The notes under the pieces are model-generated. The model saw nothing but the letters and a program-made list of their open reading frames with translations, did no database searches and was not told the DNA's origin. DNA of 64,000 bases from positions 62,001-126,000 of the forward strand of contig NZ_PJME01000016.1 in the NCBI RefSeq assembly GCF_002954775.1, written 5' to 3'. The DNA comes from Streptomyces geranii. GTDB lineage: Bacteria; Actinomycetota; Actinomycetes; Streptomycetales; Streptomycetaceae. Made by a program: the position numbers and the translations under genes. Of the stretch, positions 58,614 through 60,129 are shown in pieces (position 1 is the stretch's first letter; each line of letters opens with the position of its first letter).

Positions 58614-59564
58614 TCAGGGACTTTCGAGGCTATCCGAACCCACGTGCGTACGCCGGTCGCGGTCCGGCCGGACTGCGGAGTCGGGCGGCGGGGTCGAGCT
58701 GTCGCCGCGCCGGCCCGCGCGCGTGGGCCTGCCCAGGACGACACCGGCCAGGACGAGGGCCAGCCCGCACACTTGCCGGCCGGTCAGCGACTCCCCGGCG
58801 ACCGCCGTGCCGAGCAGCACGCCGGTGACGGGGTTGAGCAGTCCGATCAGGCCGACGGTTCCGGCCGGGAGGTGCCGCAGCCCGGTGAACCAGGCGGCGA
58901 AGGCCAGCGCGGTGGCGACCAGGGTGACGTAGCCGAACGCGAGGAGCGCCGATACGGAGAGTGCGGGCGGCGGGCCCTCCACGGCCGCGGCGACCGGCAG
59001 CAGGAACAGTCCGCCGGCGGTGAGCTGCCAGGCGGTCGAGGCGAGCACGTCCGTACCGGTGTCGTTCCACCGTTTGGTCAGGATGTGGCCGAAAGCCGAC
59101 ACCAGCATGGCCGCGGCCGAGGCGAGGACCCCCGGCACGCTCACTCCGCCCGCGCCCGTGAGCAGCATGAGGCAGACCCCCGCGAGCCCGATCGCGGCGC
59201 CGGCCAGGTGCGTACGGCCGGGCCGCTCGGACACGAGGGCCCAGGCGATGAGCATCATCGCCGGCGGGGACATCGCCATGACGGTCGAGGCGATGCTCGT
59301 CGGGAGCAGCTGGGAGGCGGCGTAGACGAGCACGAAGAACACGCTCACGTTGAGCAGTCCGAGCACCGCGGACCGTCCCCACCACACGCCGCGCGGTCGC
59401 CGCCTGCACAGGCCCAGCAGGACGAGGCCCGCGGGCAGCGCTCGCAGAGCGGCCCCGTACAGCGGGCTGTCCGCAGGCAGGAACTCGTGCGTGACGTAGT
59501 AATTGGCGCCCCAGGCCACCGGCGCGACCGCGGTCAGCGCCACCCACCGCACATTACCTTCCAT
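58614..59564 (-). CDS. EamA/DMT-family exporter
   Basis: 316 aa from ATG 59564. Ten helices in two five-helix EamA repeats (MEGNVRWVALTAVAPVAWGANYYVTHEFL ... GLAGVCLMLLTGAGG; GVLASAAAMLVSAFGHILTKRW ... GLALVLAGVVLG). The family exports amino acids and metabolites. The start codon lies inside an operator palindrome, and the -10 TATAGT (59577-59572 on this strand) would start the mRNA at the ATG. It is controlled by the divergent MarR regulator. Confidence 0.88.
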   Translation of the reverse strand: MEGNVRWVALTAVAPVAWGANYYVTHEFLPADSPLYGAALRALPAGLVLLGLCRRRPRGVWWGRSAVLGLLNVSVFFVLVYAASQLLPTSIASTVMAMSPPAMMLIAWALVSERPGRTHLAGAAIGLAGVCLMLLTGAGGVSVPGVLASAAAMLVSAFGHILTKRWNDTGTDVLASTAWQLTAGGLFLLPVAAAVEGPPPALSVSALLAFGYVTLVATALAFAAWFTGLRHLPAGTVGLIGLLNPVTGVLLGTAVAGESLTGRQVCGLALVLAGVVLGRPTRAGRRGDSSTPPPDSAVRPDRDRRTHVGSDSLESP

Positions 59565-59594
59565 GGAAGGTACTATAGCTTCCCGGGAAGCTAT
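59556..59594. promoter_or_regulatory. Double palindrome operator with back-to-back promoters
   Basis: ACCTTCCATGGAAGGT (59556-59571) and ATAGCTTCCCGGGAAGCTAT (59575-59594) are perfect palindromes sharing CTTCC-N2-GGAAG, with centres 21 bases apart. Between them lies -10 TACTAT (plus) and TATAGT (minus). A MarR dimer on each site would block both genes. Confidence 0.85.
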
Positions 59595-59604
59595 CATGGT
59601 GTGC

Positions 59605-60129
59605 ATGGACGATCCGCAACCGCTGGACCGCGTGGCCCGCATCCAGGCCGACTGGCGCCGCGAGCGGCCCGACGTCGACATCGCGCCACAGGGCGTGATC
59701 GGCCGACTGCACCGCCTGGCCGACCGCCTCACCGAGGAGCTGTGCCTCGTCTACGGCCGCTACGGCCTGAGCGAGGGGGAGTTCGACGTCCTCTGCGCGC
59801 TCCGCCGCGCCGGTACGCCCTTCGAACGCGCACCCGGCGAACTGGCCGCCCACACCATGGTCACCACCGGCGCGATGACGAAGAGGATCGACCGGCTGGA
59901 GCGGGCCGGACTGGTCACCCGCCGCCGCTCCGACGACGACCAGCGCGGCCGGATCGTCGCCCTCACCCGGCCCGGACGCGAACTGATCGACCAGGCGTTC
60001 GCCGACCACATGCGCAACGAACGCCGCCTGCTGGACCTGCTGACGCCCGCCGAGAGCGCGTCACTGGAAGGGCTGCTCACCACCTGGCTCACGCACGTGG
60101 AGAGTCCGCCCCCGCCCGACACGCACTGA
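59605..60129 (+). CDS. MarR-family regulator
   Basis: 174 aa from ATG 59605 (ATG 59596 is an alternative). Winged helix: YGLSEGEFDVLCALRRAGTPFERAPGELAAHTMVTTGAMTKRIDRLERAGLVTRRRSDDDQRGRIVALT, all standard MarR blocks including the DxRG wing. It is divergent from the DMT exporter and, through the double palindrome, likely represses both itself and the exporter until a ligand appears. Confidence 0.92.
   Translation: MDDPQPLDRVARIQADWRRERPDVDIAPQGVIGRLHRLADRLTEELCLVYGRYGLSEGEFDVLCALRRAGTPFERAPGELAAHTMVTTGAMTKRIDRLERAGLVTRRRSDDDQRGRIVALTRPGRELIDQAFADHMRNERRLLDLLTPAESASLEGLLTTWLTHVESPPPPDTH

Follow-up and report, generated by a model that had tools for sequence, protein, structure and literature searches.

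The window analyzed here, a 64-kb stretch of DNA from Streptomyces geranii, contains a divergent gene pair near its end. On the minus strand, positions 58614 to 59564 encode a 316-aa exporter with the N-terminal codons ATG GAA GGT AAT, which belongs to the EamA/DMT transporters by its match to Pfam PF00892 (E 3.9e-36; 124.8 bits in two stretches, as domain repeats). On the plus strand, positions 59605 to 60129 encode a 174-aa regulator of the MarR family that matches Pfam MarR_2 at E 3e-12 and scores above the cut-offs for both PF12802 (46.9 bits, cut-off 27) and PF01047 (43.9 bits, cut-off 24.6). The PDB chain closest to this regulator is 8ylf (E 2e-37), for which no paper was found in the open-licence literature; PDB 2fbk, which we take to be HucR, matches at E 1.8e-12. 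The urate-responsive PecS/HucR subgroup of MarR proteins is marked by an N-terminal Trp and a Trp/Asp/Arg/Arg set of ligand residues, which in HucR are W20, D73, R106, and R118. Residues W17, D61, R94, and R106 of the window MarR align with these four positions, and by this alignment the protein would fall within the PecS/HucR subgroup, resembling HucR in its ligand residues as well as in its match to 2fbk.

Two perfect palindromes lie at the divergent gene starts. The first, putative operator P1 (TACCTTCCATGGAAGGTA, 18 bp, 59555 to 59572, center 59563.5), covers the exporter start codon and the predicted +1, and the second, putative operator P2 (ATAGCTTCCCGGGAAGCTAT, 20 bp, 59575 to 59594, center 59584.5), is situated between two predicted −10 elements. 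Both contain the core CTTCC-NN-GGAAG, and their centers are 21 bp apart. Because the exporter ATG occupies 59564 to 59562 on the minus strand, it begins at the center of P1. An initial annotation, made from the sequence alone, had already reported two perfect palindromes with this shared core and had placed the exporter ATG at the center of the first; both palindromes are present, although the limits it gave for them, 59556 to 59594, are replaced by the exact ones above. Its description of the operator as coding applies to 10 of the 18 bp of P1 (59564 down to 59555), the other P1 bases being noncoding. The overlapping −10 boxes that it mentioned could be located as TATAGT on the minus strand (59572 to 59577), 7 nt ahead of the exporter ATG, and TATCAT on the plus strand (59592 to 59597), 7 nt ahead of the marR ATG, each overlapping one end of P2. 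As the marR ATG lies another 21 bp beyond P2, start codons and −10 positions are mirror-symmetric about 59584.5. A third operator position, P3 (59600 to 59611, center 59605.5), falls over the marR ATG, 21 bp from P2, and is degenerate or weak in the window.

Palindromes of this kind might arise by chance in a G+C-rich genome, and their length alone leaves room for this: the window contains two perfect palindromes of at least 18 bp and one of at least 20 bp, while 60 first-order Markov sequences averaged 0.9 and 0.25, respectively. Palindrome length was accordingly discarded as proof, since it is not significant and chance yields about one palindrome of at least 18 bp per 64 kb. What decides that the palindromes are real is conservation: orthologous loci retain the core, and its conservation in 81 of 81 loci together with the phasing of the two sites reduces coincidence to a negligible explanation. 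When the paired core CTTCCNNGGAAG-N4..25-CTTCCNNGGAAG was searched for without any protein, 67 of the 392 genomes from the genus contained it, compared with 9 of 392 for its reversed control by a direct count of the listed matches. Center distances in these genus-wide pairs (n = 70) were 21 bp in 60, with the remainder at 20 (2), 22 (3), 23 (3), 30 (1), and 32 (1). In one genome, a second CTTCCATGGAAG pair was seen (G375:C1:4776633-4776664), with its copies 20 bp apart, TTCGAA in the spacer, and no TATA-like −10.

Conservation was assessed with a protein search from which the best 80 of 232 relatives were kept, plus six more and the window from another search; because only the best 80 of 232 were kept, the sample consists of close orthologs. 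The ortholog set of 92 loci is composed of 76 rows from named records, 7 including the window (L001), and 9 obtained with the operator pattern; dropped from it were 23 of 115 loci with a duplicate 80-bp start region, L117, L119 (the window again), and L008 to L030. Two of its members, L003 and L109, are without an EamA gene. Main counts were repeated on 81 loci that are protein-selected, nonredundant, and EamA-linked, with the window included. In all 81, the center of P1 is the exporter start codon (77 ATG and 4 GTG, giving a central AT in 77 and AC in 4), whereas the center of P2 takes 12 different dinucleotides. On the marR tree of 92 rows, the P1 center changed 6 times and the P2 center 45 times. 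We read this pattern as meaning that the repressor would not read the palindrome center and that the P1 center would be fixed by translation. The exact core was found at P1 in 78 and at P2 in 77 of the 81 loci, with the two spaced 21 bp apart in 73 and at other values in 8. Symmetric co-variation of the flanks was slight, as one of eight pairs (P1 position 10, symmetric in 59 of 83) exceeded all 1,000 shuffles, whose maximum was 58.

The coding side of P1 is constrained as well. Codon 2 of the exporter is GAA in 81 of 81 EamA-linked loci and in 92 of 92 of the wider set, and yet GAA is the minority Glu codon elsewhere in the same exporter ORFs (110 GAA versus 399 GAG). An operator positioned on the gene start would fix the first two codons, the start codon included, together with the opening base of the third, and the exporter N terminus is M-E-[A/G] in most loci. 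The ORF from the P1 start is short in the records of L039 (100 codons) and L069 (72 codons). Upstream, the hexamer [TC]ANNNT stands exactly 7 nt ahead of the exporter start in 78 of 81 EamA-linked loci and 88 of 92 overall, compared with 0 to 30 of 92 at other distances from 2 to 15; its A at position 2 is kept in 88 and its T at position 6 in all 92. No Shine-Dalgarno (SD)-like 4-mer was found at −16 to −5 of the exporter in any of the 92 loci or the 81 EamA-linked ones, and the alignment of ortholog loci shows no conserved −35 hexamer at either promoter. Taking a 5′ untranslated region of less than 9 to 10 nt as leaderless, the exporter mRNA is predicted to be leaderless from the position of its −10 and the lack of an SD, and the comparison thus lends support to what the initial annotation had proposed for this transcript. 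In published start site maps of Streptomyces coelicolor, 21.0% of primary transcription start sites (TSSs) give leaderless mRNAs, and among TSSs, 80.4% have a TANNNT −10 motif and 58.6% a −35 motif, according to the figures given in PMC4895711; by these statistics, a promoter of the predicted type would be ordinary for the group.

The operators could be real and the exporter start at P1 nonetheless miscalled, with a normal leader on the mRNA or translation beginning downstream, for example at codon 5 or 8. The GGAAG of P1 does sit a few bases ahead of codon 5, but this codon is ATG, GTG, or TTG in 36 of the 92 loci and none of these in 56. Possible starts also occur at codon 8 and at codon 16, in 62 of 92 loci each; however, for in-frame exporter starts at codons 2 to 26, an SD-like 4-mer was present in at most 2 of 92 loci each. 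Since the −10 keeps its 7-nt distance in 88 of 92 loci, and a start codon occupies the P1 center in 81 of 81 while the P2 center varies, we consider such a miscalled start improbable, and the leaderless exporter beginning at the center of P1 is preferred. The alternative exporter start offered by the ORF caller at 59732 (GTG) was disfavored, as conservation points to 59564.

A comparable arrangement is found on the marR side. TANNNT, the predicted marR −10, begins one base past a core in 86 of 92 loci. An in-frame ATG or GTG is located 6 to 8 nt downstream of the −10 in 83 of 92; in 9 of 92, no in-frame ATG or GTG lies 5 to 8 nt past the −10, and the marR start is less fixed. An SD-like 4-mer precedes the first scored in-frame marR start in 12 of 92 loci. 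The marR gene is predicted to be leaderless too, in a layout that is mirror-symmetric in 21-bp steps. Alternative marR starts from the ORF caller at 59503 (TTG), 59563, and 59596 were disfavored, conservation pointing to 59605, and the plus-strand ATG within P1 was rejected as a conserved marR start because the frame from it into marR is open in only 52 of 92 loci. At P3, 6 of 92 loci (L003, L046, L060, L066, L069, and L109) have a core, exact or with one mismatch, centered on the marR ATG. In L054, L062, and L079, the region upstream of marR contains three or four CTTCCNNGGAAG palindromes spaced exactly 21 bp apart, an expansion into an operator array.

The palindromes might also belong to a regulator other than the adjacent MarR, which we regard as very unlikely because the pair accompanies this group of MarR proteins. 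Of 30 pattern matches that were fetched, 29 were marR/EamA pairs (one being the window itself), and the remaining one, L117, encodes a MarR protein with 47% identity beside an Rv2466c-like mycothiol-dependent nitroreductase gene. MarR and palindromes also stay where the targets differ (EamA, MFS, or nitroreductase): in L003 and L109, MarR is kept with an MFS gene as its neighbor, and the palindromes remain. The genome-wide motif search that the initial annotation had suggested gave CTTCCNNGGAAG 10 times in the window's own genome and the reversed control also 10 times, which offers no sign of a genome-wide regulon and suggests a local one. Outside the locus, a simple ORF test placed 6 of 8 own-genome CTTCCNNGGAAG copies inside ORFs of high GC3; the copy at L146 has no high-GC3 ORF nearby, and that at L143 lies 16 nt ahead of an ORF start. 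L008 and L117, both of which have the same core, share the recognition-helix Lys of the window MarR (TTGAMTKRIDRL); the aligned MarR proteins otherwise mostly have N, Q, G, or H at this position, yet L009 also has K.

Together, these comparisons support the MarR-type operator pair of the initial annotation, and we put the probability at roughly 0.85 that the divergently encoded PecS/HucR-like MarR repressor uses P1 and P2 as its operators and that both genes are leaderless. The best reading of the locus would be a PecS/HucR-like MarR autorepressor acting on two phased operators (three or four in some relatives) in a compact divergent promoter. One MarR dimer would bind each palindrome, and with two helical turns between them on the same face of the DNA, the dimers would probably bind cooperatively. 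Occupancy of P2 could block both overlapping promoters, and occupancy of P1 would cover the exporter +1 and start codon. A ligand, urate-like or another aromatic, may free the dimers, upon which transcription of both genes would begin at the first base of the start codon and yield leaderless mRNAs; such a start would leave the upstream half of P1 outside the mRNA. Probably, then, the site of an export-pump regulator is wrapped around the pump's start codon in a layout kept by relatives, so that one set of nucleotides seems to act as regulator site and transcription start and also to encode the first amino acids. Three readers seem to share the 12-bp core of P1: the repressor, which would use the half-sites; RNA polymerase, for which the core would supply the +1; and the ribosome, for which it would carry the start codon and codon 2. 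Because the P1 center appears to be held by translation and the P2 center does not, the comparison separates these three constraints.

In PecS-PecM systems, known from Dickeya, Agrobacterium, Vibrio, and S. coelicolor, a MarR regulator is divergent from an efflux pump. The window has the makeup of such a locus, with divergent MarR and pump genes and two palindromic intergenic sites, as outlined for PecS-PecM in PMC6391409. Unlike PecS-PecM, its sites are of the TTCC/GGAA type, 21 bp apart, and one is centered on a start codon; the core, CTTCCNNGGAAG, does not conform to the AT-rich PecS consensus operator, in the form described for Vibrio in the same source. ForZ-forAA of Streptomyces formicae is likewise a MarR gene divergent from an exporter, in which the ForZ site covers the exporter TSS, forZ expression is leaderless, and ForZ binds a single genome region (PMC12421854). 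It differs in its binding site, a single imperfect palindrome made of 8-bp repeats of a different sequence, and in the portions of that report consulted, only forZ is called leaderless and centering on a start codon is not described. CrtR of Corynebacterium glutamicum is a divergent MarR whose own gene is reported as leaderless, but the crtE TSS lies 114 nt upstream of the start codon and the TTAA site further upstream, as given in PMC5401885. Lambda cI and Tn1721 tetR are also repressor genes with leaderless mRNA (PMC4681348); they belong to unrelated repressor families, and the likeness drawn here concerns the leaderless mRNA. Within the open-licence literature, titles and abstract openings gave no description of an operator centered on a start codon, nor was an operator found that overlaps the start codon of a leaderless repressor-controlled gene; the terms leaderless, start codon, operator, palindrome, and Streptomyces combined returned only an antitoxin review, and among the matches listed for literal TTCCATGGAA, none was a Streptomyces MarR by title. 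What is new here relative to PecS-PecM and ForZ-forAA is a variant of the divergent MarR-exporter switch with a predicted operator centered on the start codon. Streptomyces engineering could draw on it as a small natural divergent switch, and it also provides a motif-based route to leaderless starts and a means of correcting start codon annotation through operator conservation.

A broader proposal, which we hold tentatively and at somewhat less than even odds, is that this MarR subgroup evolved a modular, dual-leaderless switch, about 45 bp long, whose operators regularly sit on start codons. Start codons and −10 elements, two of each, would combine with two or three operators into a mirror-symmetric unit in 21-bp steps (two helical turns, or seven codons), which would be reused with unrelated targets and whose layout may survive a change of operator sequence, as in the TTAGNNCTAA-type pairs of L169 and L171. 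If true, reuse with an EamA exporter, an MFS transporter, and a mycothiol-dependent nitroreductase would mean that the operator writes the N terminus of the gene it controls.

Loci with other targets or more distant pairs vary in their layout. In L003 and L109, the same MarR has three palindromes and the divergent gene is an MFS transporter; in L003, the MFS ORF can be read from the P1 start, and in L109 it begins about 100 bp away. In L117, L181, and L182, a related MarR is divergent from an Rv2466c-like mycothiol-dependent nitroreductase gene, an assignment checked on the L117 protein, with a gene start inside CTTCCATGGAAG. All 3 loci with a nitroreductase-like gene next to a MarR have the CTTCCNNGGAAG core at the start of that gene, compared with 0 of 28 that lack a MarR match; the second palindrome is imperfect in L181 and L182. 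A further 20 more distant marR/EamA pairs (identities of 38 to 47% for MarR and 36 to 46% for the exporter) have other palindromes, and their projected starts are 107 to 209 bp apart in 19 and 66 bp apart in L169. In two of these pairs, L169 and L171, TTAGNNCTAA-type palindromes occur as two copies exactly 21 bp apart, and a GTG was noted by eye 6 nt past a −10-like hexamer.
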